Origin: Verrucomicrobiia bacterium
GTDB lineage: Bacteria; Verrucomicrobiota; Verrucomicrobiia; JABWAM01
Length of the DNA: 64,000 bases
Direction: 5' to 3'
Assembly: GCA_020849895.1 (NCBI GenBank)
Contig: JADZFN010000067.1
Span: 1-64,000 of the forward strand
Shown here: piece after piece, positions 16,633-32,031 of the stretch
Layout: the number at the start of each line of letters is the position of its first letter
Numbering within the stretch: position 1 is the first letter of the stretch
Notes under the pieces: model-generated
Told to the model about the DNA's origin: nothing
The model's database searches: none
Seen by the model: only the letters and a program-made list of their open reading frames with translations
Translations under genes and position numbers: made by a program

Positions 16633-17372
16633 GGGCGTGTGCCTTTGCAGTCGGGGTAGCCGGTGCAGCCCCAGAAGGACTGGCCGGCGTGCGGGCCTTG
16701 TCGGGCGGTGCGCCGGCGCATGGGCTTGCCGCACTTGGGGCAGAGAGGGGTGTCGGACGAGTCGGACTTGTCAGACGAGTCAGACGAGTCGGACCGGTCG
16801 GACGCGCGCGCCTGGGTGCGCGCGCCGTAGAGGCGCTCGGTGAAGCCGCCTTTTTCGAGGAAGTCTTTCTCCAGGCGCTGGAGTTGCCGGTGGAGGAGGT
16901 AGCTGGCCTGGTTGATCAGGCAGAGCATGGTGTTGGCGGCGGCCTCGGGGGCGGCGGTCCGGATGTCGGACAGGTCGGACTGGTCGGACGAGTACCGCTG
17001 CCGCACCGCGAGCGCCTCTGGAGAATCTTTGTCCCATTGGCGCAGGCCGCGCTGGCGGAGGAAGTCCTGAAAATCCAACATCAGTTCTTCGAGGCTGGCG
17101 CGGGCCACATTCGTAAGCTTGATCTCGGTTTTCTTGGAGGTGCCGGAGGCCACACTGGCTTCGGCGATGTTCTGCACGCCGCTGCGCGCGGCTTGGACCA
17201 TCTGGTCGTGGGTGCGGCTGCGCTTCTCGATGAACCGGTCGCAGAAGAGGAGCGTACCGTCATAGACCAACTCGGCGACCTGAAAGCTGCGCAGTTTCCG
17301 GTAGCCGCCGTGGGGTGGGAGCAAGCTGGCAGATTGGTCGGACGATTCGGACTTTTCGGACGATGTTTTCAT
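16626..17372 (-). CDS. Four-helix-bundle protein with C-terminal zinc ribbon, in RM cassette
   Basis: A 248-aa protein. Residues ~22-110 resemble the four-helix bundle / 23S rRNA intervening-sequence protein family ('DRFIEKRSRTHDQMVQAARSG', 'NIAEA'); residues ~140-180 add another helical segment; the C-terminus (C211, C214, C236, C242: CPKC...GCTGYPDC) is a topoisomerase-I-type zinc ribbon. Ser/Asp-rich stretches at the N-terminus, near 128-136 and at 190-208 are encoded by TCGGACNNN repeats. It overlaps hsdR by 4 bases (ATGA at 17369-17372) and hsdMS by 7, so it is made together with the RM enzyme. I recall a named family for a four-helix-bundle suffix domain, but its function is unknown to me; a nucleic-acid-binding accessory role is inference. 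Confidence 0.8.
   Translation of the reverse strand: MKTSSEKSESSDQSASLLPPHGGYRKLRSFQVAELVYDGTLLFCDRFIEKRSRTHDQMVQAARSGVQNIAEASVASGTSKKTEIKLTNVARASLEELMLDFQDFLRQRGLRQWDKDSPEALAVRQRYSSDQSDLSDIRTAAPEAAANTMLCLINQASYLLHRQLQRLEKDFLEKGGFTERLYGARTQARASDRSDSSDSSDKSDSSDTPLCPKCGKPMRRRTARQGPHAGQSFWGCTGYPDCKGTRPC
16753..16806. repeat. TCGGACNNN 9-mer block, 6 copies
   Basis: Six tandem units, two with TCAGAC in place of TCGGAC. They encode the linker DRSDSSDSSDKSDSSD between the helical part and the zinc ribbon of the four-helix-bundle protein. This is the longest block in the cassette. Confidence 0.9.
16966..16992. repeat. TCGGACNNN 9-mer block, 3 copies
   Basis: TCGGACAGG, TCGGACTGG, TCGGACGAG. Encodes SSDQSDLSD, in frame, between two helical segments of the four-helix-bundle protein. 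Confidence 0.85.
17338..17364. repeat. TCGGACNNN 9-mer block, 3 copies (5' end of four-helix gene)
   Basis: TCGGACGAT, TCGGACTTT, TCGGACGAT. Encodes the Ser/Glu/Asp-rich N-terminus SSEKSESSD of the four-helix-bundle protein, starting a few codons after its ATG. Confidence 0.85.
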
Positions 17373-19906
17373 GACAAAAACTGGTTCAGCGGCACGTAGT
17401 CCTTCACGTACTCGGGGATCACGTCGCGCCACTGATCGAGAGCGCGGAATTCGCCGAGCGACACCATCGCGTTGTTCGCCAACCGGCTGTATTCCCGGCT
17501 GTCCACAATCTGCCGGACCCCGCCATCCGTGATGTACGCCTTGAAGAACTGACGGATGACCGGCATGTGGAGAGCATCAGGCTGGTGAATGGAGACAAAT
17601 TTGGCGAGTTCGTCTTCGAGCAGCTCGTCCTTCGACTTGAACCGGTCAATCTCGCCGAAGACTTTGGCGAGCAGTTCCCGGAGCGTGATGCGGCGGTCGA
17701 GGGCGACGGCTTTTCGGAGTTTGTCGAGGTTGAAGAAGTCTTCGGGCTTGTTGAACAGGTCGCGGGCGACGATTTCCTCCGCGCCTTGGAGGTCGCCCGC
17801 CTCGAACCGGGCGCGCACTTCGGGCGCGGCTTTGACCTGGTCCTCGAATCGTTCGAAGAACTTGCGATCAATCTTCATGCCGTGCACCGGCACCGACGTT
17901 TCCCGGAGGGTCCTGAGCGGGTCAGGGTCAACGTTGGTGTAGTCGGGCGGGACTGGCGGTGGTGGCTCCGGTGGTTCTGGCTTCGGACGAGTCGGTTTGA
18001 TGGGCGGCAGCTTGATGGTTTCGTCGTAGTTGAACTTTTCCTCGAAGTACTCGCAGTTGGCGAAGAAGTCGAAGAGCTTGAACTTCTGTTTCTCCTTGGT
18101 GTGTTCCTCGGTGCGCGCGCCATCTTTCTCGACATACCGGAACGTGAACTTGCGCGTGCCGCGGCCTTTGATCTGGATGAAATCGGTCGGGGAGAAGATG
18201 GGGCGGAGCAGGACGAGGTTGAGCAGGTCTTCGCAGTCGTAGCCGGTGGTCATCATGCCGACGGTGACGCAGACGCGGGTCTTGGCGCTGGGGTAGCCGT
18301 CGAGGAACCGGGTGTGGCCGTTGAGATTGTTGTTGGCGAAACGGACGGCCATCTGCTGGGCGTCGGTGATGACGGAGGTGACCTGGAGGGCAAAATCGGA
18401 GTTGTACTTGCCGGGGAACATCGCGTGGACGAGTTCGTTCAGCTTTTGGGTGATGCGGGTGGCGTGATCTTGCCGGACGCAGAAGACAATCGTCTTGCCG
18501 ATCTCGCCGCTGAGCGGATCGCGGAGGGCGTTCTTCAGGAACGTCTCGCAGAAGACGCGGTTGGTTTCGTCGGAGAAGAACTTCTTCTCGAAATCCTTGC
18601 CGAAGAACGTTTGCTCGACCATCTCGCCGTCGTCGGTCTCCTGCATCACGGAAAAGCCTTTGGCGGCGAGCAGTTCGGTGGTGATCTCGGTGCGGGCGTC
18701 CACAACGACCGGGTTGAGCAGGTAGCCTTCCTTGACGCCGTCAATCAGGCTGTAGCGGAACGTCGGGATGCCGCTGGCGCAGCCGAAGGTCTTGTAGGTA
18801 TCGAGCAGTTGGCGGCGCTCCCATTCGCGCGGGTCGCGGGCGTTGATCCGGGCGGGATCAATCTTCTTGAGATAGTCCTTCGGCGTGGCCGTGAGGCCGA
18901 GCTTGTAGCCGATGAAATACTCGAATACCGCCCGGCTGTTGCCGCCGATGGAGCGATGCGCTTCGTCGGAGATCACGAGATCGAAATCGGTCGGCGAAAA
19001 GAGGCGGCGATATTTGTCGCTGAACTGGAGGCTCTGGACGGTGGAGACGACGATCTCGGCCTTGCGCCAGTCGTCGCGGTTCTCCTTGTAGATGACGGTG
19101 CGATAGTCGTTTTTCAGGTAGCGGACGAACGCCTTCCACGCCTGGTTCTCCAACTCGATGCGATCCACAAGGAAGAGCACGCGCTTGGCGTTGCCGGTGC
19201 GCATGAACAGCTTGATGACGGCGGCGGCGGTGAGCGTCTTGCCGGTGCCGGTGGCCATCTCGAACAGGAAACGGGTTTGGTCCTTCGCCACCGCGCCTTG
19301 CAGAGCGGCGATGGCGCGAAGCTGATACGGACGCAGGAACTTCAGCTCGGCTTCTTTGACGTATCCATCGCGCTGGGCGGGATCGTTCCAGCGCGGGTCA
19401 TTCCGGTAGCTCGCGTTCTGTGTGATGGCGACGTAATCCTCGGCGACCTTCTCGCTGACGAGCTTATCGGGATTCGGCTTAAAGCTGTGAAACTGACCGA
19501 GCGAGGTCGGCGTCGGCAACTCGGTGATGATCGTCGGGTTGCCGGCCTCCAGATCCCAGAAGTAATGCAGGTTGCCGTTGGAAAGAAGGATGAAGCGGAC
19601 GTTCTGCGAGCGGGCATACTGCCGGGCCTGCTCTTTGCCGACGAGCGGATCAAGGCTTTCGCGCTTGGCCTCGAGCACGGCGACCGGGCAGCCGCGCTCA
19701 TCGAGCAGCAGGTAATCAATAAAGCCGTTGGCCGTCTTCTCGAAGTCGTCGCCGAGCGCTTCGAGAGACGGCGGCGTCCGTTCGACGCTGGCTTCGAGCG
19801 CGATGTTGGCCGAGCCGCTTTCATCGGCGAAGAACCGCCAGCCGGAGCGCAGGAGCAATTCATTGATGCGGATTCGCGCCCTGGCTTCCTTGTTCGACAT
19901 ATCCAT
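17369..19906 (-). CDS. hsdR: Type I restriction endonuclease subunit R (HsdR)
   Basis: An 845-aa motor-nuclease of the type I RM system that translocates DNA and cuts when the target is unmethylated. Residues ~1-90 hold the PD-(D/E)xK nuclease: D64 in GFIDYLLLD and E79-x-K81 in AVLEAKRE. The SF2 helicase follows: 'LRPYQLRAI' (Q-motif-like), Walker A MATGTGKT (~217-224), DEAH (~314-317), 'GLTATPKDYLKK', and a motif VI region 'GRGTRKF'. A Pro-rich linker (PEPPEPPPPVPPD) precedes a C-terminal helical domain. I prefer the ATG at 19906, which has AGG seven bases upstream; ATGs at 19927 and 19900 are alternatives. Its stop overlaps the next gene by 4 bases. Confidence 0.93.
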   Translation of the reverse strand: MDMSNKEARARIRINELLLRSGWRFFADESGSANIALEASVERTPPSLEALGDDFEKTANGFIDYLLLDERGCPVAVLEAKRESLDPLVGKEQARQYARSQNVRFILLSNGNLHYFWDLEAGNPTIITELPTPTSLGQFHSFKPNPDKLVSEKVAEDYVAITQNASYRNDPRWNDPAQRDGYVKEAELKFLRPYQLRAIAALQGAVAKDQTRFLFEMATGTGKTLTAAAVIKLFMRTGNAKRVLFLVDRIELENQAWKAFVRYLKNDYRTVIYKENRDDWRKAEIVVSTVQSLQFSDKYRRLFSPTDFDLVISDEAHRSIGGNSRAVFEYFIGYKLGLTATPKDYLKKIDPARINARDPREWERRQLLDTYKTFGCASGIPTFRYSLIDGVKEGYLLNPVVVDARTEITTELLAAKGFSVMQETDDGEMVEQTFFGKDFEKKFFSDETNRVFCETFLKNALRDPLSGEIGKTIVFCVRQDHATRITQKLNELVHAMFPGKYNSDFALQVTSVITDAQQMAVRFANNNLNGHTRFLDGYPSAKTRVCVTVGMMTTGYDCEDLLNLVLLRPIFSPTDFIQIKGRGTRKFTFRYVEKDGARTEEHTKEKQKFKLFDFFANCEYFEEKFNYDETIKLPPIKPTRPKPEPPEPPPPVPPDYTNVDPDPLRTLRETSVPVHGMKIDRKFFERFEDQVKAAPEVRARFEAGDLQGAEEIVARDLFNKPEDFFNLDKLRKAVALDRRITLRELLAKVFGEIDRFKSKDELLEDELAKFVSIHQPDALHMPVIRQFFKAYITDGGVRQIVDSREYSRLANNAMVSLGEFRALDQWRDVIPEYVKDYVPLNQFLS

Positions 19907-19927
19907 TCGTCCGCCTGGGCGATTCAT

Positions 19928-20329
19928 CCCTGTCCAAAGAGGATTTCCTTCTGTCGAAGTTCCCAGTTTCGCCCTGGACAGCAGCCGAAGCTATGCGAAA
20001 GAGGTTTTAACCTTGAGTGATATCTGCGCTTGTTCTCCCGAGCACGGGTGAGAATAACGAGGCCTTTCGTCTGCGCGCAAGTCTTGTTGCGAGCCCGAGG
20101 GCGAACGCAGCAATCCACAAAACAGCGCCCTCGGCGCAACGGCCATCGGCAGAGATTGGAAAGGCAAGCCCTCCCCGGCTCCCTCCTTTCTCGTCCTCGC
20201 GCTGGCGTTCGTCAATCCGTGGATTTCCAACGCGCTCGATGTCTTCGTTGTGCTGCTCTGGCTGATTTCCGACCGCCGTATCGAACGCATGCTCATCCAG
20301 CGAGACAAGCAACTGCGAGCGGACGGCGG
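19928..20329. other. Intergenic region upstream of hsdR
   Basis: Apart from the TMEM175 remnant at 20121-20298 I find no gene. Minus-strand frames of about 100 codons here are antisense to the remnant and have no family features. The hsdR promoter should lie in the first ~150 bases, but no clear -10/-35 pair stands out. Confidence 0.5.
20121..20298 (+). pseudogene. 3' remnant of a TMEM175-type (DUF1211) potassium channel gene
   Basis: The plus frame from 20121 reads 'GATAIGRDWKGKPSPAP', then LALAFVNPWISNALDVFVVL and LWLISDRRIERML. This is the ending typical of bacterial TMEM175 proteins: GRDW-KGK-SP, a last membrane helix containing FVNPW, then WL-x-x-DRRIER. Neither the N-terminal helices (with the family's F-SDAV filter motif) nor a start codon can be found upstream in any frame, so only about 55 codons survive. 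It lies between hsdR (divergent) and the proline iminopeptidase gene (convergent), and reads into the latter's 3' end. Likely a deletion scar beside the restriction cassette. Confidence 0.55.
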
Positions 20330-21214
20330 CTATCGCCCTTCCACGCCGTCCAGAAACTCCGCCACGGTGCGGTTGTATTGTTCCGTCTCTTCGAGGTGGG
20401 CACAGTGCGCGCTCTTTTCGAACACCACCAGGCGCGAGCCAGGGATGCCCTGCTGGATCGTTTGCGAACAGACCAGCGGCAACTCGTCATAGCCGCCGAC
20501 GGTGATCAGCGTGGGGCATCGGATGCGACCCAACAGACTCGTGCGATCCCAATCCTTCAGTGTGCCGATCACCATGAACTCGTTCGGACCGTTGAGGGTC
20601 TCATAGACCAGGTTATGATCCATGTTTTTGACGCTGCGCACGATACAGTCCGGCCAAGGGTCGAGCCGGCAGAGGTGACGTTTGTAAAATTCCATGACCA
20701 CTTTCTCGTACGCGGGATTGTGCAGGTCCATGGCGGCTTCGTATTGTTGCAGAATCTTGTACTGCTCCGCCCCCAGCGCCGCCTTCAGGCGTTCGGCCTC
20801 GGTCACAAACTGTTTGATGCTGGAGGAAGTGCTGGCCAACACCAGACTCTCAATGCCTTTCGGGTTCGCCGTGGTCATGTATTCGATGGAGAGCCACCCG
20901 CCCCACGATTGACCGAGCAGATGAATCCGCTCCAGCCCTAGCGCCTTGCGAACCGTATCCACCTCGGCAACGAAGCGTTGGACGGTGATCTTCGATTTGT
21001 CCGCGAACCGATCAGAGAGACCACATCCCAACTGATCGTAAAACACGACTTCGCGGTCCGCGCCGAGTCCTTCGAGCGGTTCGAGGTAATCGTGCCCCGC
21101 GCCGGGCCCGCCGTGCAGACACAACAGCGGCAGCCGTCCGCTCTTTGACTCTCCGACCCGGCGATACCACACCTTCTGACCGTCCACCGTGATCTTGCCT
21201 TCTTGTTTTTTCAT
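20330..21214 (-). CDS. Proline iminopeptidase (alpha/beta hydrolase, S33)
   Basis: A 294-aa cytoplasmic alpha/beta hydrolase. Seen: the oxyanion-hole motif HGGPGAG (residues 34-40), the strand-turn motif 'FYDQLGCGLSD' characteristic of prolyl iminopeptidases, the nucleophile elbow GQSWGG (Ser103), a helical cap in the middle, then 'GGYDELP' (acid) and 'SAHCAHLEE' (His). Family members remove N-terminal proline or other residues from peptides; some cleave amino-acid amides or related substrates. The ATG at 21214 is chosen because GGGAG precedes it by about 8 bases; the longer reading to 21415 adds residues unlike the family. Base composition is slightly more relaxed than in its neighbours. It stands alone, convergent with the TMEM175 remnant. 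Confidence 0.85.
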   Translation of the reverse strand: MKKQEGKITVDGQKVWYRRVGESKSGRLPLLCLHGGPGAGHDYLEPLEGLGADREVVFYDQLGCGLSDRFADKSKITVQRFVAEVDTVRKALGLERIHLLGQSWGGWLSIEYMTTANPKGIESLVLASTSSSIKQFVTEAERLKAALGAEQYKILQQYEAAMDLHNPAYEKVVMEFYKRHLCRLDPWPDCIVRSVKNMDHNLVYETLNGPNEFMVIGTLKDWDRTSLLGRIRCPTLITVGGYDELPLVCSQTIQQGIPGSRLVVFEKSAHCAHLEETEQYNRTVAEFLDGVEGR

Positions 21215-21676
21215 GATGGGTCTCCCGTCATTGAAGCCGAGACCTCGAGTATAGGATTCCACTCCGACAGTCAAGGATCGCCGCTGACATTCCGCAGGAA
21301 AAAGTGTCTGTTCAATCATATTGATTGAGGTGTTGCCGGTGCGCGGCGAAGCGAAGCATCTCGCCGCGCAAGGAGGCCGCTCATCCGCGCGACACGCGCA
21401 GGGGAACCCCTTCAAGCCAGCGCATGGGCGTTTTTCACCAGGTCAGGACGACCTTTGTCCACACGCCGTTCCGGCTCCAACAACGGGGTCCAGGTTTTGC
21501 GACACGGAATCAATTCGCGCCAAGTGATCACTTGCCGAAAACAGAACGCTTTGTCTCCATGATCTCACAATGAAATCAGATCGGCGCATTGCCATCCGCG
21601 GCGAGAAGGGTAAAGTGCCCTGGACGCCGCCGCCGGGTGCCTCCGGTCGGCTCCCGCACCGAAAGGAATCCACGCC
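21215..21676. other. Divergent intergenic region before sugar-utilisation operon
   Basis: No gene is supported in these 462 bases; the frames on both strands are short and without family features. The region should carry the promoters of the iminopeptidase (minus) and the glycosidase operon (plus). One perfect palindrome lies at 21521-21534. AAGGAA just before the ATG at 21677 is a good ribosome binding site. Confidence 0.5.
21521..21534. promoter_or_regulatory. 14-bp perfect palindrome, possible operator
   Basis: CAAGTGATCACTTG is self-complementary over all 14 bases and lies 142 bases upstream of the glycosidase-kinase-isomerase operon. A transcription factor dimer site is possible, but there is no regulator gene next to it and no second copy seen. 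Confidence 0.35.
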
Positions 21677-23686
21677 ATGCCGACATCCAACCGACGCTCG
21701 ATTTCCTACACCCTGCCCTGGGACGATGCCCCGCTGGACCTCTCCTTCATCTTCGAAGGAGAGAAGCCCGCGGGACGGCGCGGCTTCCTGCGCGCCAAGG
21801 ACGCCCGTCTGATGTTCGAGGACGGCTCGATCGCGCGCTTCTGGGGGACCAACTTCAACAGTGCCGCCAATTTTCCGCCGCACGCATACAGCGAGAAAGT
21901 CGCGCGGCGACTGGCCAAGTTCGGCGTCAACCTCGTTCGCTTCCACCAAATGGACGCGGACTATTCCACCCCCAACATCTTCCAGTTCACCAAGGGTCGT
22001 CGGCTGAACGACACCCAGAGCCTGGACCCGACCAGTCTGGATCGTCTGGATTACCTGATCCATTGTCTCAAGCAGGAAGGCATTTATGTCTACATGGATC
22101 TGCTGACCTACCGCACCTTCCGAAGCGGGGACGGAGTGGCCGAAGCCGGAAAGATCGGGCATTCGGCGCGGCCTTATTCGACGTTCGACCCTCGCCTGAT
22201 CGAGCTCCAGAAGAAATTCAACAAACAGCTCTGGACGCATATCAATCCCTACACGAAACTGGCCTACAAGGACGAGCCGGCCATCGCGCTCACGGAAATC
22301 ACCAACGAGAACGACGTGTTCTGTTGTTCCCGCGGCAAGTGGATCGAGCCTTATCTCGGCCAGCTCCAAGCCCGCTTCGTCGAATGGGCCGGGCGCAAGG
22401 GTCTGGAAGTTGGCGCGGGGGCCGGCGACTTTTCCGACAACCGCCCCGAGATCGTGGACTTCCTGGTGGACACGCAGAAATCCTACTACGCGGAAATGAT
22501 CGCGCACCTTCGAAAGATCGGCGTCCGCATCCCGATCACCGGCACCAACTGGTCCCGCGGCGCCGCGCTGTTGGAGGCCCAGATGGCGACAGACTTCACC
22601 GACAGCCATACCTACTGGTATGAGTTCGGGATTTGGAAGCCTGAGGAGAAGCGGCTCATGAACAAGTCTCTCCTCGGGGAGCGCGCCACCTGGCTCGAGG
22701 ACCTCTCCACGTTCCGAGTGCTCCACAAACCTTTCTTCGTCTCGGAGTGGGATCATCCGTGGCCCAACGAGTATCGGGCCGAAGGGGCCATCCAGTTGGC
22801 GGCCGTGGCCGCCTTCCAGGGGTGGAGCGGGGCCGCGATCCACACCTATCGCTACGACTGCCGCGAGCACACGGACCAGATCGGAGCGCCCATCACCTCG
22901 GACGCCATCGGCGGCGTGCCTTACCGGGGCGGCGTGTTCGACACGTTCAACGATCCCGCCAAGTTCGGACTTTTCTATCACGCCGCGCTGATGCTTCGCC
23001 GCGCCGACGTGCGCGAACCGTCGGAGGCCACCGAGATCGTCCTGCCGTGTCTTACTCGGGAGGGAACATTGATCCGCCCACCCCATCAAGGCATGGAGGG
23101 CGCCGCCGAGTTCCGCAAGGTCGGGGTTCGATTGCCCGGTGCGCCCGCCCGAGGCCATCATCAGGCGCCCACGAATCCACCCCTGGTTCCCCTCGAAGTC
23201 ACGGAAATCCGCTCGGAAACCGGAGAACTCTACCGCAACCTGTCGAAACGCTACGCCACCATTGACACCCCTCGCACCCAGGCCGCCTACGGTTTTCTGG
23301 CGGAAGCCGGCGAGATCGTCCTGAGCGGACTGAAAATCAAGGCCGAGACGGACTTTGCCGTGATCGCCATCAGCTCGCTGACGGAGGAGCCGCTCCCGCG
23401 CTCCAACAACCTGCTCCTCACCGCCGTGGGTCGTGCGGACAACACCGGCGCGAAATACAATGCCGACCACACGATCCAGCTCGACGTCGGACACGGCCCG
23501 ATCCAGGTGGAGGTGATCGAGGCCGACTTGGAGCTGACCACGGAGATGACGGACCTCAAGATCTGGGCCATCAACCCGGCCGGCTTTCCCATCGGCCAGA
23601 CGCCGGTGATCCATGAAGGAGGACGAGCCCGGTTCAAGATCGGCGGCGCGTTCCCCTCCATCTACTACCTGATTCAACAGGCATAA
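21677..23686 (+). CDS. Glycoside hydrolase, clan GH-A-like (cellulase family fold)
   Basis: A 669-aa probable glycosidase without a signal peptide, so likely cytosolic. The first ~430 residues look like a (beta/alpha)8 barrel: 'RFWGTNFNSAANFPP' at the first strand, 'FGVNLVRFHQMD', then the likely acid/base ITNEND (Asn210-Glu211) and a likely nucleophile in VSEWDHPWPNEYR (Glu357). The Asn-Glu/Glu pair is the hallmark of clan GH-A (GH5, GH42 and others). A beta-rich C-terminal region (~450-669) follows. I cannot assign a GH family or substrate. It is followed after 15 bases by a sugar kinase and then an isomerase, so its product is probably a monosaccharide used in the cytosol. AAGGAA precedes the ATG. 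Confidence 0.75.
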   Translation: MPTSNRRSISYTLPWDDAPLDLSFIFEGEKPAGRRGFLRAKDARLMFEDGSIARFWGTNFNSAANFPPHAYSEKVARRLAKFGVNLVRFHQMDADYSTPNIFQFTKGRRLNDTQSLDPTSLDRLDYLIHCLKQEGIYVYMDLLTYRTFRSGDGVAEAGKIGHSARPYSTFDPRLIELQKKFNKQLWTHINPYTKLAYKDEPAIALTEITNENDVFCCSRGKWIEPYLGQLQARFVEWAGRKGLEVGAGAGDFSDNRPEIVDFLVDTQKSYYAEMIAHLRKIGVRIPITGTNWSRGAALLEAQMATDFTDSHTYWYEFGIWKPEEKRLMNKSLLGERATWLEDLSTFRVLHKPFFVSEWDHPWPNEYRAEGAIQLAAVAAFQGWSGAAIHTYRYDCREHTDQIGAPITSDAIGGVPYRGGVFDTFNDPAKFGLFYHAALMLRRADVREPSEATEIVLPCLTREGTLIRPPHQGMEGAAEFRKVGVRLPGAPARGHHQAPTNPPLVPLEVTEIRSETGELYRNLSKRYATIDTPRTQAAYGFLAEAGEIVLSGLKIKAETDFAVIAISSLTEEPLPRSNNLLLTAVGRADNTGAKYNADHTIQLDVGHGPIQVEVIEADLELTTEMTDLKIWAINPAGFPIGQTPVIHEGGRARFKIGGAFPSIYYLIQQA

Positions 23687-23701
23687 TCCCGGCCGGCCTC
23701 C

Positions 23702-24844
23702 ATGAATGCGCCCTCCGTCTCCCGCCCGATTGACGTCGTCGTCGCGGGGTATCTGGGAGTGGATCTCACTCCGGGATTCAGGCCCGCGCCGAGGGCGCTC
23801 CCTGTTTCCGACCTGTTCCGTCCCGGCCGGTTGATTGAAATGGAGGGACTGGAGATCTCGCTGGGTGGTGTGGTGGCCAACACCGGCCTCGCCCTGCGGC
23901 GATTCGGCCAGCGAGTCGAGTTGATGGGCTGCGTGGGCAACGACGACCTGGGCGATCTGGCCGTGGCCCGCCTGAAACCGGCGGGCGTTTCCGGAGGAAT
24001 TCGCCGAAACAGCCGGGCGAGGACCGCCTGTGGGATCGTCCTCGCCCCGCCCGGCAGGGACCGCCTCTTCCTGGAGGATCCCGGATGCAACCGCGATTTC
24101 ACCTCGAACGACATTGACTTCGAGGTCGTTGGCCGGAGCCGCATCTTCCACTTCGGCTATCCTCCCCTGATGGACGAGATGTGGAAAAACGGCGGCGCGG
24201 AATTGCGAAAACTTCTGGAGCGGGTGAAGGAACGGAGGACGATGACCTCCCTCGACATGAGCCTTCCGGATCCCCAAAGCCCCGCCGGGAAGGCGGATTG
24301 GCCGGCGATCCTGGCCAACGTCCTGCCGTTCGTGGACCTCTTCACGCCCAGCATGGAAGAACTGCTCTTCATGCTGGAGCCTGCACTTTTCACACGCCTT
24401 GCGTCGGAGGCGCCTGGGGACGACATGATGGCCGCCGCCCCTGCGGATCTCGGCAAGCGGCTTGCCGATCAAATTCTGGCAATGGGCGCCCGGGCGCTTC
24501 TCATCAAGGCCGGCTCCCGAGGGGCCTATCTTCGCACCGGCAACCCGGAGGCGCTTCAGGACGGCGGACCGTTTCCCCACTCCGATCTCGGGGGCTGCCC
24601 GGAGGGCGTCTGGATTCCTCCTCGCCCCTTCGAGGCGAGGCGCTTCCGAAATGCCTGTGGGGCGGGAGATTGTGCCGTGGCGGGATTCTTGGCCGCCCTG
24701 CTGAAGGGGGAGAACCTCGAAACCTCCGCGCGCTTCGCCATGATCGCCGGACGGGATAATCTCTATGGGTCCGACGCTGTGTCGGGTCTGAGAGACTGGA
24801 CGCAGATGGCCGACGAAATCAGGAAAACAAAAAATCAACCATGA
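23702..24844 (+). CDS. PfkB family carbohydrate kinase
   Basis: A 380-aa ribokinase-superfamily kinase that phosphorylates a sugar with ATP. Seen: the N-terminal 'VVVAGYLGVDLTPGF', the glycine motif 'SLGGVVANTGLALRRFG' with 'GCVGNDDLGD' (PfkB signature 1), 'LFTPSMEELLFM' before the active site, and the anion-hole/catalytic motif NACGAGDC (about residues 317-324, catalytic Asp in GAGD). The usual length is ~310 aa; extra segments lie near 245-300. It overlaps the isomerase gene by 4 bases (ATGA, 24841-24844), so the two are coupled. It probably phosphorylates the ketose made by the isomerase; the actual sugar is unknown. Confidence 0.88.
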   Translation: MNAPSVSRPIDVVVAGYLGVDLTPGFRPAPRALPVSDLFRPGRLIEMEGLEISLGGVVANTGLALRRFGQRVELMGCVGNDDLGDLAVARLKPAGVSGGIRRNSRARTACGIVLAPPGRDRLFLEDPGCNRDFTSNDIDFEVVGRSRIFHFGYPPLMDEMWKNGGAELRKLLERVKERRTMTSLDMSLPDPQSPAGKADWPAILANVLPFVDLFTPSMEELLFMLEPALFTRLASEAPGDDMMAAAPADLGKRLADQILAMGARALLIKAGSRGAYLRTGNPEALQDGGPFPHSDLGGCPEGVWIPPRPFEARRFRNACGAGDCAVAGFLAALLKGENLETSARFAMIAGRDNLYGSDAVSGLRDWTQMADEIRKTKNQP

Positions 24845-26202
24845 GAAAGATCACTGCGGGTTTCGTGGGATTCGGAGAAGTCAACACTCCCCGGGAGTGG
24901 ATTGAACCGCGCTGCGCCGCGGCCGCGGCCCTTCTCGAAAAAGAGGGATTCGAGTTGTTCGTAACCGCCCCCGTATGCGACGACCCGGACGGACGAGAAG
25001 CCGCGCGGGCGCGACGGGAGCTGGCCGGTCATGATTTCGACCTGCTGATCCTCTGCGTCGCCGGGTGGATCCCCTCTTGGGCGGTCTTTCGCGTGATCGA
25101 GCCGTTCCGTCACAAGCCGATGATTTTATGGGGACTCACCGGCCGACAGGAAGGCAACCGGTTTGTCACCACCGCCGACCAGGCCGGGACCACAGCCCTT
25201 CGCCAGCCGATGGCCGACATGGGATACACGTTCAAGTATGTGGTCACATCTCGCGGACAGAAGACGGACCCGGAGAGCCTCGTTCGCTACGCGGAAGCCG
25301 CCCGGGCGGCGGCGCTCCTGAAGACCGCCCGGATCGGCATGGCCGGTTACCGGGACATGCGCCTGTATGGGACGTTGTACGAGGGGGTGTCCCTAAAGGC
25401 GAAAATCGGTCCGGAGATCGAACATTTCGATCTACTCGAAATCTCGCAGGCCATGGAGACCATCCCTGAAAATCAGATCGCCGCCTTGGCGGAAACATTA
25501 AAAAAACGCTGGCGGTTCGTGAAGCCTCCCCGCCCCGGCACCGTGGAAAAATCCATCCGCCTTTTCCTGGCCTTCAAGGACAAGATCCGGTCCCGCGACT
25601 ACCAGGGATTCAGTTTCTCCGACGTGGACGGCGTGAAGAAACAGCTCCGGTTCGCGCCTGCCGGCAGTCTGACCCTGCTGCACGACGAGATGGACGTCTG
25701 CTCGATTCCTGAAAATGACAGCCTCGGCGCCGTGACGCAATTGATCGTAAAATTCCTGACCGGCCAGGCGGCCGCCTACCTGGAGTTTTACGAGTTTCTG
25801 GAAAACGGCGCGCTGATGGGCGTTCCCGATTATGTCCCTGCGGAAATCGTAGAGGGCCAAGTGACCGTGATGCCCAGCGCCTTCGGCGATTTCGGCGAGG
25901 GCCTGTTGAACGTCTCCCGGCTGAAAACCGGCCGGGTGACGCTTTGCCGCCTCGGATATGCACACGGCGCGTACACCCTGCACGTGGTGACCGGAACCGC
26001 GCGGACTCCCATCCCATGGGAGGAAGCCGGCTGGGCGCCGCCCGCGCCGCAACTGCCCAGCCTGGAAATCGTTTTTGATTCGCCCGTGGAGAAGTTCGTA
26101 CAGAACGTCATGGCCCAACACTACATCCTCGCCTACGGAGATCATCGCTCCAGGCTCGAGGACCTCGGCGCGATCCTCGGGATCGCCACGATTCTGGCGT
26201 AG
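24841..26202 (+). CDS. L-fucose/L-arabinose isomerase-like protein
   Basis: A 453-aa protein resembling the L-fucose isomerase fold, in which aldose-ketose isomerisation uses a divalent metal. Seen: an N-terminal Rossmann-like part ('LLILCVAGWIPSWAVFRVIEPFRHKPMILWGLTG' region), a middle domain ('ARIGMAGYRDMRLYGTLYEGVSLKAKIGPEIEHFD' region) and a C-terminal 'FCPEGD'-like domain whose His/Asp ligands I could not place. It is shorter than E. coli FucI (591 aa), like many homologues of unassigned substrate. Translationally coupled to the PfkB kinase upstream. Together with the glycosidase it suggests release, isomerisation and phosphorylation of one sugar inside the cell. Confidence 0.75.
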   Translation: MRKITAGFVGFGEVNTPREWIEPRCAAAAALLEKEGFELFVTAPVCDDPDGREAARARRELAGHDFDLLILCVAGWIPSWAVFRVIEPFRHKPMILWGLTGRQEGNRFVTTADQAGTTALRQPMADMGYTFKYVVTSRGQKTDPESLVRYAEAARAAALLKTARIGMAGYRDMRLYGTLYEGVSLKAKIGPEIEHFDLLEISQAMETIPENQIAALAETLKKRWRFVKPPRPGTVEKSIRLFLAFKDKIRSRDYQGFSFSDVDGVKKQLRFAPAGSLTLLHDEMDVCSIPENDSLGAVTQLIVKFLTGQAAAYLEFYEFLENGALMGVPDYVPAEIVEGQVTVMPSAFGDFGEGLLNVSRLKTGRVTLCRLGYAHGAYTLHVVTGTARTPIPWEEAGWAPPAPQLPSLEIVFDSPVEKFVQNVMAQHYILAYGDHRSRLEDLGAILGIATILA

Positions 26203-26226
26203 AAGCCGGGGGCTCGAGCTTCCTCC

Positions 26227-27684
26227 CTACTCCGCCGCGCGCATCTTCTGGATTTCCATCCAGATCCCGAGCAGCGCGGAGCGCACGATGCGACCGCTAT
26301 CATGCGGCCGTGCGAGATACTGCTGGCGGATCAGCGCATGCGAGGTGCCCACGCACCATCCAAGGAAACGCCCGTCCCAGATCTTCGTTTTCATTCCCTG
26401 CCATGCGCGCTCGACCATCGGTGGAATCCGTTCATCGCGGAGCCAGCCGCGCGCCCAGGCCCGCGCGTAGATGCGGATGAACTGGCAGGACGCCGAACCG
26501 CAGGGGCGGCTGTCGGCCGGCGAAGCATCGAGCACATTGAGCCACAGACCATCCTCCCCCTGGACGCGGAGCAACCCTTCGAGACAGTCGCGCAGCAACG
26601 CGCATAATCCCGTCCGTTGCGGATGGTTTTCCGGCATCAGGTTCAGCATCGACCGGATGCCCCAGAGGAAATGGGAGTTGCCCCGCGCCCACGGCGCCGA
26701 ACGGAGGTCGGGTCCCGTCGGCCGTCCGACGTGCCAGTAGAGGGCTTTCTGAGGCTCAAAGAGCCAGCGGTGCGCCCCCAGCGTATGTGCCAGCGCGCGG
26801 TCGAGCCAGCGTGTGTCGCCCGTGGCCCGCGTCAAGGTCGCGTAGGTCTCGCCCACCCAGAGGTTGGTCTCGGTCCAGACCCAGGCATCGTCGAGCACGG
26901 CTTGGGGCGGGCGGTCCGCGTCCGCCCCTTCCGGCACATGGAGGTCGCAGTTGAGAAAAACGCCGTCCTTCCGCCAGAGGAGCGGCCAGGGCGTCTGGGC
27001 GCGGCAAACGGCGGCGAGACGCTCCAGCGGCCGGCGATCGCCGGTCTTTTCCGCATAATCGAGAAAATGCTGCATCCCGTGGGCGTCGGGGAGACGGTCC
27101 AGTTTCGGATAATGCTCGGCGAGATGCGCCCAGACCGGCTCTGCGAGCGCGGGATCGCCAAAGAATTCCGCCGCCTCGATCGCCGTCGGCATCGTGAACA
27201 TGCCGAGTGGATCGGTGAAGGGAACTCCCATCCGCGCGTATTGGCCGAGTTCGTCAGCGGTCGCGCCCTGGCAGGCAGCGACCAGCGTCGCGTCCTCGAT
27301 TCCCTGGAGCCGGGTGATCATCGCGGGGTCGCGCATCGGGAGCCCCGCCGTGTTGACGAGGCGCGTGACGACGTGGCGGACGTTCACATCGCCCACGGCG
27401 CCACCCGCAACGGTCTTCAGGTCGGGCCAGAAGACGAACCCGCCTTCCCTCGTGAACGCGCGCAGGCGGCTCGCGAGGGGCTCGCCCAAAAACTCGTCGC
27501 GCCGCGCCGGGTCCACCATGACGCAGCGGACGCCGTCGAGGGCGGGCGGAAGATCCCTCGGCAGCGTCCAGCCCTCGCCGAAGGGAAAGTGGACGCCGAG
27601 GTCCACAAACTGGCGGATGAAGTGGGTGTAGACGGGATGCGGCGCCGCCGGCGCGAGGATGAGGAGGGGAGGAACGGGGTTCAT
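26227..27684 (-). CDS. Glycoside hydrolase GH88/GH105-like (unsaturated uronyl hydrolase)
   Basis: A 485-aa (alpha/alpha)6-barrel enzyme. The second half shows the family pattern: 'DDAWVWTETNLWVGETYATL', 'HVGRPTGPDLRSAPWARGNSHFLWGI' and 'GEDGLWLNVLDASPADSRPCGSASCQF', matching the DxxW...WxRGNGW...S-A motifs of YteR-type unsaturated rhamnogalacturonyl hydrolases. These hydrate the 4,5-unsaturated uronic acid left by polysaccharide lyases. The N-terminal ~150 residues are an extra domain ('LLILAPAAPHPVYTHFIRQF', 'VMVDPARRDEFLGEP') that resembles glutamine-amidotransferase-like or ThuA-like folds; this is a guess. ATG 27684 overlaps the GH38 stop by 4 bases. No signal peptide. Confidence 0.7.
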   Translation of the reverse strand: MNPVPPLLILAPAAPHPVYTHFIRQFVDLGVHFPFGEGWTLPRDLPPALDGVRCVMVDPARRDEFLGEPLASRLRAFTREGGFVFWPDLKTVAGGAVGDVNVRHVVTRLVNTAGLPMRDPAMITRLQGIEDATLVAACQGATADELGQYARMGVPFTDPLGMFTMPTAIEAAEFFGDPALAEPVWAHLAEHYPKLDRLPDAHGMQHFLDYAEKTGDRRPLERLAAVCRAQTPWPLLWRKDGVFLNCDLHVPEGADADRPPQAVLDDAWVWTETNLWVGETYATLTRATGDTRWLDRALAHTLGAHRWLFEPQKALYWHVGRPTGPDLRSAPWARGNSHFLWGIRSMLNLMPENHPQRTGLCALLRDCLEGLLRVQGEDGLWLNVLDASPADSRPCGSASCQFIRIYARAWARGWLRDERIPPMVERAWQGMKTKIWDGRFLGWCVGTSHALIRQQYLARPHDSGRIVRSALLGIWMEIQKMRAAE

Positions 27685-30600
27685 CGCATGATTCCAAGTT
27701 TCAGGGTGACGATCTGGAACGGTCCCATCTCGAGCGTCACGCCACCGCTCTCCCATTTCAATTCGGCTTCCTCGTCTTCGAGGAGGTTGCAGCGCACCGC
27801 GCGTGTCACGGAAAGCGGGCTCGTCATCCGGACGAGGCCGCGCGCGCCATGCGATTCGACGAGGCGGAGGACGAGGTCGTCCGAATCCTCCGCACGCTTC
27901 ACGGTATCCACGACCACCGAGGCGCGGTCCACGGAGAAAAAGGACTGCTCCTTCGGTGCGACGCTCGTCGGGACGACGAGGAGCGGCGCGTTGAAGGCGG
28001 CGGCCTCCTGAACGACGCCCGCGGCGCGGAAGTCGCCCCCGTGCGTAAGGAGGGCGTAGCGAAAGCGGTGCGCCCCCTGGTCGGCCTCGGGATCGGGCTG
28101 CATCGGCCCGCGCAGCAGCGAAAGCCGCATCACATGGCCGTGCACGGCGTGGCCGTATTTGCTATCGTTGAGCAGCGCGACGCCGAACCCCGGTTCGGAG
28201 AAGTCCGCCCAGCGATGGGCGCACACCTCGAAGCGCGCGAGGTCCCATGTGGTGTTGAAGTGCGTCGGACGCTGGAGATGGCCGAACTGAATTTCGTAAG
28301 TGGCGTTCGGCGCGCGCGCCTCCACGGGGAACTCGACCTTCAAGAACTCGTGTCGCTCCCGCCAATCCGCCTCGCAGGCGAACTCGAGGCGACGCGATAC
28401 GGCGTCGAGCGAGGCGACCACCGTCAGGCGGCTCTTCGCCCCGACGGCGTAATCGAAGCGAAGCGCCGCGCGCAACGGCCCTTTCTCGACCACGCGCCAT
28501 TCCCTCGCAGGCGCGACCGGACGCGGTTTCTCCAGGTGATAGGCGTCCACTTCCCAGGCATCCCAGTTGTGAGGTTCGTCTTCGAACAGGACGAAGCGGT
28601 TGGCCTCGGCGCCCTTGGCGATCGCCTCGCGTCCGAGCACCCGGTCGCGCAGGCTGACGAGCGCGCCGCCGCGCGTGAAGCGGGCGGTCGTCCAGGCGTT
28701 TTCGAGCACGAGATGGTCCCCCTCGTCGCGGACCGTCGTCGCCGTGGCCGGCGTCCGCGAGGCGTCGAGCGCGGCCCAGCCCATGGAAGGCGCGCACGCG
28801 ATCCCCAGGGGACGCCCATCGCGGCCGATCTGCGTCGAGGGGCATCCCTCGGGCAGCTCGACCACCTCTTCGCGCGCATGCGAAAGCGTGTTCACCGTCG
28901 CGAGACCCGCGGGGCGTCCGTCTGCGGGCGGCAGGAGCGCATTCAGACCCGCGGCGCGCGCCGCATCCGTCGCGGCGAACACCTGGAGGAACTGTTCCTC
29001 GGAATCGCGATACACCTCCCGGATCGAGCTGCCGGGAAGGATATCGTGAAACTGGTTGAGCAAGACGAGCTTCCACGCGCGATCGAGCGCCTCGGAGGGA
29101 TACGGCGCCCCGGCGCGCGCGAGCGCGAGCGCGGCGAGACACTCCGCGTCGTGGAGCGCGCCCTCGGCGCGGCGGTTGTTCCGCTTGATCCCGGCTTGCG
29201 ACGTGTAGGTGCCCCGATGCAACTCGAAGTAGAGCTCACCGACCCAGACCCTCGGATCGCGCAGGTCGGCTTCGCAGCGGCGGAAAAACTCCGCGGGCGT
29301 CCGATGCTCGACGCGCGGCAGGCCCTCGAGGTCCTTCATCCTCCGGAGCGAGGCGAGCATCCCGCGGGTCGGCCCGCCGCCGCCGTCGCCGTGGCCGTAG
29401 AGATAGCAGCTCTCGCGCCCGCGCTCGTGGTCCTTGAAGTTGCTCACGTTGAAGACGAGGTCCTTCACGGAGGCGACTCCGTTGTAGGTGTCGGCGGGCG
29501 GAAAATGGGTAAGCACGCGGCTGCCGTCAATCCCCTCCCAGAGGAAGGTGTGGTTCGCCGGCTTGTTGAACTGATTCCACGAAAGCTTCTGGGTAAGGAA
29601 GAAACGGATGCCGCCTGCGCGCAGAATCTGCGGCAGCGCGCCCGAGTAGCCGAAGACGTCCGGGTTCCAGAACTCGCCGCAGGTGATCCCGAACTCCCGG
29701 CGGAAGAACCGCTGGCCATGGAGGAACTGGCGCACGAGCGATTCGCCCGAAGGGAGGTTGCAGTCGGGCTCGATCCACGTGCCGCCCGCCGGCATGAAAC
29801 GACCTTCGGCAACGCGCCGCTTGAGCCGTTCCCACAGCTTGGGATGACCCTCCTTGATCCACGCGAACTGCTGCGCCTGCGAACAGACGAAACGATAGTC
29901 CGGGTCTTCGTCCATGAAACGGAGCGCCGTGGAGAAGGTGCGCACGCACTTGCGCCGCGTCTCCGCGAGCGGCCAGAGCCACGCGGTGTCTATGTGCGCG
30001 TGGCCCATCGCCGTGACGTTGTGCTGGCCGGAGGCGTTGCGCGCGGCGAGGAACTCTGCCGCGATCTCCCGCACACGCGCCCACGTGGCGCGGTCGTCCG
30101 CCTCGAAGGCGTTCGCCATCGCATTCGCCACCCGCAGCGCCTCGCCCGCGCGCGGGCTGGCTTCGGGCAGATGCTGCGCCATGTCGGCGACGGTCATGAA
30201 GTCCCAGTAGAGCTCCCAAAGGTCCCGGTCGAAGCAGGCGATCTCGGCCTGGGCGAGCAATCCGACCTGGCTGTGGACCGGTTCGCCTTCCCAGCCGAAC
30301 AGCGTGTTGCAGGCGACCTCGATGTAGAGCGTGCGCCGCTCTCCACCTGCGGCGCGCGCCGTCAGCGGAAATTCCGGGCGCAACGCCTCCTTGGTCTCCA
30401 TCCATGCCGGCCCGCAGGCGCCCGTCAGCCCCTGGAGCGCTTCCCCCTCCTCCCAGACACACCCTTCCGAGCGCGTGTCCCAGAGGAGGTGCACCTCGCG
30501 CCCCTTCCACTCGCGCGGCACCTGGAGGTCCACACGGAACCAGTGCGTGGACCACCGCGGCCCGAGCGTCTCCCCGAGCTTCGCTGGGCGATAGGCGCCG

Positions 30601-30776
30601 CGCCTCGCCTCGTCGAACGAGATCCGGCCCGGCGCGGCAAAAACAGCAAGCTCCACCGGCGCGCGATCGGGATAGAGTCTCCCGCGCAGACGGGCGGCGA
30701 GTTCGTGGAATCGAAAGAGGGTGAGCTTACGATGGTTCTGCACGATGGGGCGCGGAGTTTTGAAGCAAACCCGCAC
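27681..30776 (-). CDS. GH38 alpha-mannosidase
   Basis: A family 38 retaining alpha-mannosidase of up to 1031 aa. Seen: the N-terminal catalytic domain with zinc ligands in GHAHIDTAWLWP (His, Asp), the 'DEDPDYRFVCSQAQQFAW' region, 'GGTWIEPDCNLPSGESL' and the nucleophile WNPDVFGYSG; a middle three-helix bundle with the histidine of 'NQFHDILPGSS'; then the large beta-sandwich C-terminal part. It hydrolyses alpha-mannosides, probably in the cytosol as there is no signal peptide. The start is uncertain: GTG at 30776 gives the longest reading, GTG at 30743 (VQNHRKLTLFRFHEL) better matches the family. Coupled to the GH88/105 gene (ATGA) and preceded by an araC gene on the same strand. Confidence 0.9.
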   Translation of the reverse strand: MRVCFKTPRPIVQNHRKLTLFRFHELAARLRGRLYPDRAPVELAVFAAPGRISFDEARRGAYRPAKLGETLGPRWSTHWFRVDLQVPREWKGREVHLLWDTRSEGCVWEEGEALQGLTGACGPAWMETKEALRPEFPLTARAAGGERRTLYIEVACNTLFGWEGEPVHSQVGLLAQAEIACFDRDLWELYWDFMTVADMAQHLPEASPRAGEALRVANAMANAFEADDRATWARVREIAAEFLAARNASGQHNVTAMGHAHIDTAWLWPLAETRRKCVRTFSTALRFMDEDPDYRFVCSQAQQFAWIKEGHPKLWERLKRRVAEGRFMPAGGTWIEPDCNLPSGESLVRQFLHGQRFFRREFGITCGEFWNPDVFGYSGALPQILRAGGIRFFLTQKLSWNQFNKPANHTFLWEGIDGSRVLTHFPPADTYNGVASVKDLVFNVSNFKDHERGRESCYLYGHGDGGGGPTRGMLASLRRMKDLEGLPRVEHRTPAEFFRRCEADLRDPRVWVGELYFELHRGTYTSQAGIKRNNRRAEGALHDAECLAALALARAGAPYPSEALDRAWKLVLLNQFHDILPGSSIREVYRDSEEQFLQVFAATDAARAAGLNALLPPADGRPAGLATVNTLSHAREEVVELPEGCPSTQIGRDGRPLGIACAPSMGWAALDASRTPATATTVRDEGDHLVLENAWTTARFTRGGALVSLRDRVLGREAIAKGAEANRFVLFEDEPHNWDAWEVDAYHLEKPRPVAPAREWRVVEKGPLRAALRFDYAVGAKSRLTVVASLDAVSRRLEFACEADWRERHEFLKVEFPVEARAPNATYEIQFGHLQRPTHFNTTWDLARFEVCAHRWADFSEPGFGVALLNDSKYGHAVHGHVMRLSLLRGPMQPDPEADQGAHRFRYALLTHGGDFRAAGVVQEAAAFNAPLLVVPTSVAPKEQSFFSVDRASVVVDTVKRAEDSDDLVLRLVESHGARGLVRMTSPLSVTRAVRCNLLEDEEAELKWESGGVTLEMGPFQIVTLKLGIMR

Positions 30777-31026
30777 GCGGTCAATTCAAAAACCGGCGAA
30801 AGCACCTCGCTTTTCTCCATATTTCGAGAAGCGGACGAGGGGGAACACGGATTCCCGGGCACAACGCGCCTGACGCCTTCCCCTCCTCAAAAAAACCTCG
30901 TGCGACCCCGGACTCGGCGCGCCTTCCCAAGGGGCGTTTGCGCGGCGCGACGCGGATCCGAGCCGCCGGCCTGGCGCTCCTTTGCCGGAGGAAATCCAGC
31001 GGGCGGCAAGCGAGACTCCCGAAACC

Positions 31027-31052
31027 CGCCGGGAGGATTTCATCTCCCGGCG
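31027..31052. terminator. Hairpin spanning the araC stop codon
   Basis: CGCCGGGAG (31027-31035) and CTCCCGGCG (31044-31052) form perfect 9-bp arms; the araC stop codon lies in the 8-base loop. There is no T-run after it on the minus strand, so it may be an attenuator or RNA-stability element between araC and the GH38 gene rather than a full terminator. Confidence 0.35.
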
Positions 31053-31906
31053 CGGGCGTGCTTCTTTCGGAAACGGACGGGCGAAAAACCGAAGTGCATG
31101 CGGAAATCGCGCGAGAAAAAGAGCGGGTCGCGGTAGCCGGCCGCCAGGCCCACGCTCTTGACGGGAAGCGAGGTGGCCAGGAGCTGTTGCCGGGCGAGGC
31201 GCATCCGTTGTTCCTTCACCCATTTTTTCGGAGGCATCCCCACGAGGCTGCAAAAGGTGTGCTCGAAAAAGGAGGAGGGCGTTCCGACGGCCGCCGCCCA
31301 TTCAGCGAGGCGGAACGGGCGCGCGAGGTTCGCGAGCGCCCACGCCTGGGCGGAGCGCGTGAGCGTCGTCGCGCGGTCCCGAAGTTCCGGCGCGCGACGC
31401 ACCGGCGAGCGCGTCTCCCGCAGGATGCGTTCGGTCAGCTCAAGCAGCGCCGCCGCGACCGCGAGGTCGCGGAGCGCCGAAGACTCCGCCAGCGCGCCCA
31501 GTACGCGGCGAAAAGCCTGCCTTATCTCGGCGGGATGCCGCAGCACGTGATGGTGGCGGAATTCACGGTGGAGAAGGATGTTGTCCTCCTCCCCCTGGGA
31601 GACGGCGAATCCCAGGCCGATCGCCGTATGCGGCCGCCCAAAGGCGGACCACAAAGAACAGACTTCGCCGGGACGGAGAATCATGAGGTCGCCTTGACGA
31701 AAGAGGTTTTTTCTCCCCTCGATCTCCGCCCAGAACCCCCCGCGCTCCGCGAAGCGGAAGCTGAGCTTCCCGGGATGCAGCGGCGCGGGACCGAACCGCC
31801 AGCCGGCCGGCTTGGTTTCCTCCATGCCAGAGTAGATGTGGACTCCGAAGCGCGCCTCGAAGAGGGGCGAATACAGGCGGGCGCGAGCGGAAAAGGATGA
31901 AGACAC
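31040..31906 (-). CDS. AraC family transcriptional regulator
   Basis: A 288-aa regulator. Residues ~25-110 form a cupin-like sensor ('GKLSFRFAERGGFWAEIEGRKNLFRQGDLMILRPGEVCSLW' region, typical of sugar-binding AraC N-domains), and ~185-280 hold the two helix-turn-helices ('FRLAEWAAAVGTPSSFFEHTF', then 'SVGLAAGYRDPLFFSRDFRMHFGFSPVRFRK' region). The start is GTG at 31906, with GGAG ten bases before it; no ATG in the same frame precedes the sensor. It lies upstream of the GH38 and GH88/105 genes on the same strand and is divergent from a PEP-CTERM gene, so it may control either side. Confidence 0.88.
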   Translation of the reverse strand: MSSSFSARARLYSPLFEARFGVHIYSGMEETKPAGWRFGPAPLHPGKLSFRFAERGGFWAEIEGRKNLFRQGDLMILRPGEVCSLWSAFGRPHTAIGLGFAVSQGEEDNILLHREFRHHHVLRHPAEIRQAFRRVLGALAESSALRDLAVAAALLELTERILRETRSPVRRAPELRDRATTLTRSAQAWALANLARPFRLAEWAAAVGTPSSFFEHTFCSLVGMPPKKWVKEQRMRLARQQLLATSLPVKSVGLAAGYRDPLFFSRDFRMHFGFSPVRFRKKHARAGR

Positions 31907-31952
31907 GATCGTTTTTCTCCATGTTTTTTTTGAAAATGTCCATTCTAAAAGA

Positions 31953-31981
31953 TTGGCGTTTTTCCGCCGGCACGCTATAAA
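31953..31981 (+). promoter_or_regulatory. Sigma-70-type promoter of the PEP-CTERM gene
   Basis: TTGGCG (31953-31958) and TATAAA (31976-31981) are separated by exactly 17 bases. A start site near 31988 would leave a leader of about 45 bases containing AAGGA 9 bases before the ATG at 32032. Position and spacing are good; the -35 matches four of six consensus bases. Confidence 0.6.
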
Positions 31982-32031
31982 TCTCCGCTGATTCGCAACG
32001 TTTTCTCGAATTCTTCAGCCAAGGAATCCTC

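Follow-up and report, generated by a model that had tools for sequence, protein, structure and literature searches.

What route do three closely packed sugar-enzyme genes serve in a Verrucomicrobiia bacterium (assembly GCA_020849895.1), and on what kind of sugar would it act? The window, by which we mean the whole analyzed stretch of 64,000 nucleotides of contig JADZFN010000067.1, carries on its forward strand (21677-26202) three intact open reading frames (ORFs): a glycosidase of 669 aa resembling glycoside hydrolase (GH) clan GH-A and family GH5 enzymes (21677..23686), a PfkB-family sugar kinase of 380 aa (23702..24844), and an AraA/FucI-superfamily ketol-isomerase of 453 aa (24841..26202). 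A gap of 15 bases separates the first two genes, and the stop codon of the kinase gene overlaps the start codon of the isomerase gene in ATGA, in agreement with the coupled arrangement described in an earlier, sequence-only reading of this DNA. That reading had proposed a single intracellular route for a sugar released from a glycoside, which is supported by recurrent linkage and co-occurrence in relatives (genomes that are not independent of one another) and the three genes in turn appear to belong to a larger operon. We lean modestly toward a reading in which the trio is a cytosolic route from a glycoside to a ketose phosphate and forms half of a larger DeoR-regulated pathway, with the other half on a second contig, C21, and with an amine-bearing sugar as the possible substrate.

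The larger operon is seen among relatives of the isomerase. A scan of 84,980 genomes gave 240 isomerase-encoding stretches, the best 80 of which were kept as loci; these are labeled Lentisphaerota, Verrucomicrobiota, Planctomycetota, Kiritimatiellota, Spirochaetota, Armatimonadota, Acidobacteriota, Omnitrophota, Fibrobacterota or unassigned, although many of the relatives are metagenome-assembled and single phylum labels may be wrong. Operon genes were counted in a tblastn pass with at most six representatives per family, which discarded isomerase matches below 40% identity and kinase, aminotransferase and oxidoreductase matches below 35%; a diverged kinase could therefore have escaped the count. 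Family names were taken from Pfam and NCBIfam scans of the representatives, except for the DeoR and major facilitator superfamily (MFS) groups, which were named by eye. Besides the isomerase, present in all 80, the loci hold a PF04734-like hydrolase (50), an FGGY kinase (41), a PfkB kinase (14), a class III aminotransferase (26), a Gfo/Idh/MocA oxidoreductase (26, as 15 and 11 in two groups), a DeoR regulator (20), a metallo-beta-lactamase-fold protein (8), an MFS-like transporter (7) and the glycosidase (2), and GH28-family proteins also recur near the isomerase. Isomerase relatives are therefore often found in a shared operon with DeoR, the aminotransferase, the oxidoreductase, the PF04734 "ceramidase-like" hydrolase and a sugar kinase. 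The PF04734 cluster is loosely named: the C21 protein scores 50.9 bits against a cut-off of 32.1, the L134 protein falls below it at 25.2, and the L092 protein has no match at 1e-3. Genes of three further types, triosephosphate-isomerase-like, SIS-domain and YjbQ (UPF0047), are found repeatedly next to the operon (L195, L199, L219, L220, L197 and L213), the first and last types in 6 of the 80 loci and SIS in 5.

Co-occurrence was assessed in 387 genomes of the phylum. Isomerase matches were found in 59 of these, of which 46 were kept at an identity of at least 43% and 13 were dropped as paralogues (22-27%); the other sets comprised 20 of 116 genomes for the glycosidase (best E <= 1e-100), all 58 for the aminotransferase and 77 of 137 for a class II aldolase considered below. 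The isomerase (46 genomes) and the aminotransferase (58) occur together in 38, and the isomerase is present in 17 of the 20 genomes with a close glycosidase.

In the window genome itself, the aminotransferase orthologue is located on contig C21, whose genes were called with a codon model trained on the window genes. One strand of C21 encodes a sodium:solute symporter (SSS; PF00474, 109 bits), the aminotransferase, a Gfo/Idh/MocA oxidoreductase, a PF04734 hydrolase, and a 495-aa protein that has no Pfam family above cut-off and looks amidohydrolase-like by eye, while an intact DeoR-like frame lies between the symporter and the aminotransferase. The aminotransferase and oxidoreductase are 76% and 65% identical to those of locus L157, and the hydrolase is 47% identical to that of L158. 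In both of these loci, the aminotransferase, oxidoreductase and DeoR genes lie divergently beside genes for a PF04734-like hydrolase, PfkB and the isomerase. Because the C21 gene set is linked to PfkB and isomerase there, we read the operon as split in the window genome. Another PF04734-like gene lies at the start of contig C41 of this genome. No transporter, DeoR regulator or aldolase is found among the trio's immediate neighbors in the window, so the earlier statement that a transporter is lacking holds for these coordinates, but the genome does have the symporter gene beside the other half of the operon.

In the reading we favor, a GH5-like retaining glycosidase would release a sugar from an imported glycoside, a metal-dependent isomerase of AraA/FucI fold would convert the aldose to a ketose, the PfkB kinase would phosphorylate the ketose, and the C21 half (SSS symporter, DeoR, class III aminotransferase, Gfo/Idh/MocA oxidoreductase and PF04734 hydrolase) would complete the pathway; the order of the reactions, their cytosolic site, the metal, the cooperation of the two halves in the window genome and the class of substrate are what we infer, whereas gene content, linkage in relatives, predicted folds, the conservation of catalytic residues and the exchange of kinases are what the analysis shows. 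The glycosidase, PfkB and isomerase genes are contiguous in three places, the window, L152 and L155, in three gene orders, and in a fourth genome (G170, locus L109) a fragment of the isomerase lies at a contig end beside the glycosidase. A PF04734-like gene accompanies the glycosidase in 10 of 25 glycosidase loci, the window included.

As to the class of sugar, another ten regions around aminotransferase genes were retrieved, of which four come from a single family within the window's class. The neighbors scanned at aminotransferase loci include two NagA-like proteins (194 and 166 bits, cut-off 226), three NagB-like proteins (at most 47 bits, cut-off 237), one DeoC/LacD aldolase (128.6 bits, above cut-off) and two FGGY kinases. 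Two NagB-like genes are also present in the window genome, L261 (G000:C64, 8198-10034) and L260 (G000:C24, 4100-5365); one of them is beside a DhnA-like aldolase (29% identity) and the other is about 1.7 kb from a gene that looks ceramidase-like by eye. Together with the C21 half, this NagA-like and NagB-like context, which is below curated cut-offs, suggests that the pathway sugar carries or once carried an amine. The likeness to NagA-NagB catabolism of N-acetylglucosamine extends to Nag-like genes at the aminotransferase loci of relatives and to NagB-like genes in the window genome. In contrast to that system, the scanned Nag-like genes lie under the curated cut-offs, and the present gene set additionally includes a transaminase and an oxidoreductase, along with a ketol-isomerase whose fold is different.

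The kinase of the window is a PfkB protein (PF00294, 91.9 bits against a Pfam cut-off of 25.8), as had been proposed from the sequence, with a GAGD motif kept in 13 of 13 aligned sequences and no NCBIfam model above cut-off. Across the 80 isomerase loci, FGGY alone is found at 40, PfkB alone at 13, both at one (L193) and neither at 26; of the 55 rows that have a kinase, counting the window, 50 have it no more than 350 bases from the isomerase. Placing the FGGY and PfkB labels on a tree of 81 isomerases built by maximum likelihood gave a parsimony minimum of 6 switches, with other rows not counted and with 16 of the 78 inner branches drawn open as weak. The window's isomerase pairs most closely with that of L143, a locus that carries FGGY instead of PfkB, with support of 100/95. 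This repeated exchange suggests that both kinase families use one ketose, and it follows that the sugar is not to be read from the kinase family. At L136, the FGGY kinase scores highest for xylulokinase (XylB), at 358.5 bits against a cut-off of 380.25 and well above fuculokinase and ribulokinase.

The isomerase falls below the curated cut-off of every Pfam and NCBIfam model that it matched. In Pfam, these are PF02952 (Fucose_iso_C, 18.8 against 29.3 bits) and PF24856 (AraA_central, 16.0 against 24 bits), and the best NCBIfam match is the sulfoquinovose isomerase SqvD/SftI (NF048012, 51.4 against 700 bits). Its structural model (mean predicted local distance difference test score, pLDDT, 90.9) aligns to E. 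coli AraA with Z 32.1 and 3.1 Å over 438 residues, and to FucI with Z 29.4 and 3.0 Å over 434 residues, and on this basis the protein is predicted to have the AraA/FucI-superfamily fold. The sequence-only reading had called it L-fucose/L-arabinose isomerase-like, which stands as far as the fold is concerned; L-fucose and L-arabinose as substrates are not supported, as the scores are 11.2 against 850 bits for L-fucose isomerase (TIGR01089, fucI) and 16.9 against 622 bits for L-arabinose isomerase (NF002795). Glu315, Asp330 and His427 are kept in 39 of 39 aligned isomerases, the alignment covering 39 of 43 clustered sequences after four truncated or overlong ones were omitted. These residues are putative metal ligands, assigned by motif and by analogy with the E. 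coli AraA and FucI sites, the profile alignment being loose in that region. A second AraA-like isomerase family, of about 463 aa, was also encountered (L081, L108, L156 and L170); its L081 member scores 77.8 bits to L-arabinose isomerase (cut-off 622), and the family shares loci with the isomerase studied here in L081, L156 and L170, together with Gfo/Idh/MocA or amidohydrolase genes.

The sequence-only reading had left the glycosidase without a GH family. It is placeable by fold and profile as a predicted GH5-like member of clan GH-A, closest to beta-mannan enzymes, although we do not file it in GH5 because PF00150 (GH5), its only Pfam match, stays at 16.9 bits, under the gathering cut-off of 23.5. 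A profile built from 22 sequences, the window's included, matched PDB entries for GH5 mannanases at E 1.7e-8. The AlphaFold model (pLDDT 88.8) shows a barrel followed by a C-terminal beta region, the C-terminal domain spanning residues of about 450-669, and among the matches listed for it by VIA-align (50 rows, all glycosidases of GH5, GH164, GH2 and others, all with Z above 20, and all of which we take to belong to clan GH-A), the top one was the GH5 mannanase 8gf3 (Z 25.9, 3.0 Å over 318 residues). Further matches were the exo-mannosidase 1uuq (Z 24.5, 2.8 Å over 338), GH164 (6t6g; Z 22.3, 3.9 Å over 411) and the Opitutaceae exo-mannosidase 7bob (Op5Man5; Z 21.6, 4.2 Å over 372). The predicted structure follows the clan GH-A pattern of a (beta/alpha)8 barrel in which Asn-Glu comes after strand 4 and a Glu sits at strand 7: Asn210-Glu211 follows the strand at 203-207 and Glu357 lies within the strand at 353-359. 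By motif, Glu211 would be the acid/base and Glu357 the nucleophile. The Asn-Glu pair and second Glu pointed out in the sequence-only reading are each present in 22 of 22 aligned sequences (window protein included), as are Arg88, His90 and Tyr313, while Trp383 is kept in 21 and His311 in 18; the protein thus carries the residues typical of a GH5 active site (R, H, N, E, H, Y, E, W). As in the sequence-only reading, no signal peptide was seen when the N-terminus was read by eye.

These mannan-related matches raise the possibility of a mannose route, in which a GH5-like beta-mannosidase would be followed by isomerization of D-mannose to D-fructose and by a PfkB fructokinase yielding fructose 6-phosphate. 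We regard this as unlikely. Its appeal is that beta-mannanases and exo-mannosidases, including Op5Man5, are the glycosidase's best structural and profile matches, that the product would require no aldolase, and that a GH38 alpha-mannosidase with five GH38-associated domains above cut-off lies next door (27681..30776, reverse strand), taken here as a neighbor rather than as a pathway member. However, the glycosidase is a minor partner of the isomerase, the scanned FGGY kinase is nearest to xylulokinase, and the aminotransferase and oxidoreductase would be left unexplained. Op5Man5 is described as an exo-mannosidase of an Opitutaceae bacterium in the excerpted text of PMC8233224. The GH5 exo-beta-mannosidases (CmMan5A, and Op5Man5 in 7bob) and GH164 share the barrel fold and the conserved catalytic positions with the window's enzyme, which, among the matches listed, is 13-14% identical to exo-mannosidase chains and 10-12% identical to GH164 chains; unlike these, it has no signal peptide and is linked to an isomerase and a kinase.

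A route for L-fucose, L-arabinose or D-arabinose that ends in a class II aldolase or an epimerase appears quite improbable. AraA and FucI are the top folds for the isomerase among the matches listed, and the window genome encodes two PF00596 proteins, one of them (by eye) next to microcompartment-shell-like proteins. In addition, 15 of the 45 isomerase genomes other than the window's encode a class II aldolase that is more distant (E 1e-25 to 1e-31), and L222 has such a gene roughly 0.4 kb past PfkB on the opposite strand. Against this stand the fucI and L-arabinose isomerase scores, the preference of the scanned FGGY partner for XylB, and the distribution of the close orthologue (E of about 2e-50 or lower) of the window genome's microcompartment-like class II aldolase, which occurs in 77 of the 387 genomes and is nearly mutually exclusive with the isomerase: only 1 of the 46 isomerase genomes, the window's own, has it. 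This co-occurrence test weakens the case for a fucose or rhamnose route. The FucI-FucK and AraA-AraB systems share with the present one the isomerase superfamily and, in 41 of 80 loci, an FGGY kinase; they differ in that the isomerase here is under their family cut-offs, that the window has PfkB instead of FGGY, and that 45 of 46 genomes lack the close aldolase orthologue (15 of these having distant ones). The aldolase locus of the window genome, L238 (G000:C3:24000-34000), appears microcompartment-like by eye, with an aldehyde dehydrogenase-like protein and small shell-like proteins alongside the class II aldolase.

Sugar-acting class III aminotransferases and dehydrogenases are also known from amino sugar and azasugar biosynthesis, which would speak for a pathway in which these two enzymes make an amino sugar or azasugar precursor, fed by the isomerase and kinase. 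Such a role seems improbable, as breakdown is the better fit for the glycosidases (GH5-like and GH28-like), the MFS-like and SSS transporters, and the NagA-like and NagB-like genes.

A known gene set similar in outline is sulfo-EMP2, in which, per the excerpted text of PMC9594981, a glycosidase and the FucI-homologue isomerase SqvD are followed by a sugar kinase; sulfo-TAL likewise has the glycosidase and the FucI homologue, and the kinase is what sulfo-EMP2 adds. Unlike either, the operon studied here has an isomerase far under the SftI model, a kinase of PfkB or FGGY rather than PfkA type, and an aminotransferase, and SqvB, SqiA and sulfoquinovosidase were not recognized in the scanned part of its neighborhood. 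A sulfoquinovose-type route, with the isomerase as a distant SqvD (SftI) and the kinase as a sulfofructose kinase, is very improbable: NF048012 does top the isomerase's NCBIfam matches and SqvD is a FucI homologue (PMC9594981, in excerpt), but 51.4 bits is far from 700, the same excerpt gives sulfo-EMP2 a PfkA-family kinase in clusters with sulfoquinovosidase and mostly SqvB, neither of which was recognized among the neighbors clustered or scanned (a part of all neighbors), and the excerpted text of PMC12890257 lists SqvD pathways for Firmicutes, Thermotogae, Chloroflexi and Spirochaetes.

Several observations weigh against the amine-sugar pathway that we favor. The two halves of the operon are unlinked in the window genome, and an ungapped comparison of the glycosidase upstream region with five C21/C41 stretches gave no shared operator, 14 to 60 of 60 shuffles being equally good. 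The glycosidase stands beside the isomerase in only 2 of the 80 other isomerase loci (L152 and L155), while 8 of 25 glycosidase loci have a PF04734-like gene nearby and no isomerase match (L109, with its isomerase fragment, being among these). In six genomes of the window's order, a full-length glycosidase is found in the window's only and an isomerase orthologue in 2. Of the 26 loci at which no kinase was found, 16 have more than 5 kb of upstream sequence and 10 have less. Twenty genomes have the aminotransferase but no isomerase, and 8 have the isomerase but no aminotransferase; the Fisher values for isomerase with aminotransferase and with glycosidase are very small, but shared ancestry overstates independence, so they are descriptive.

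The enzyme folds are already known, whereas the gene combination looks undescribed: narrow word searches of open-access papers found no description of the gene set, which is weak evidence of absence. More tentatively, the operon may represent a so far undescribed route for breaking down a sugar that bears an amine, or glycosides of that sugar, with a distribution over PVC (Planctomycetes, Verrucomicrobia and Chlamydiae) bacteria, Spirochaetota, Armatimonadota, Acidobacteriota and further phyla. It would be a pathway in which an AraA/FucI-fold isomerase family, itself new, would be combined with interchangeable kinases (FGGY or PfkB) and interchangeable glycosidases (GH5-like or GH28-like), and in which the aminotransferase and the PF04734 "ceramidase-like" hydrolases would act on sugars. 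If true, this would give a testable function to an isomerase family seen in 46 of 387 phylum genomes and in 240 stretches across the scanned genomes, as well as to the isomerase-adjacent PF04734 proteins and the GH5-like glycosidase lacking a signal peptide. The two kinase families are unrelated, and since their repeated exchange suggests the use of one ketose by both, a single substrate screen could decode both.

Upstream, the trio's neighbor is a proline-iminopeptidase-family hydrolase on the opposite strand. Downstream, also on the opposite strand, are a convergent GH88-family hydrolase (26227..27756; 93.8 against 26.6 bits), likewise taken as a neighbor rather than a pathway member, the GH38 alpha-mannosidase and an AraC regulator. 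Promoter-like matches (1 found, 0.7 expected) and terminator-like matches (2 found, 4.0 expected) showed no excess over shuffles, and Rfam gave nothing at the gathering threshold in positions 20000-32500. Elsewhere in the window, by eye, a type I restriction-modification-like locus occupies 14065-19927 on the reverse strand, with subunit-like proteins of 889 and 852 aa and, between them, a four-helix-bundle-like protein of 268 aa with an SDSSD-rich zinc-ribbon-like tail. Also by eye, 32032-33615 on the forward strand encodes a secreted repeat-rich protein that starts with a signal-peptide-like segment and has a tail of PEP-CTERM-like type.

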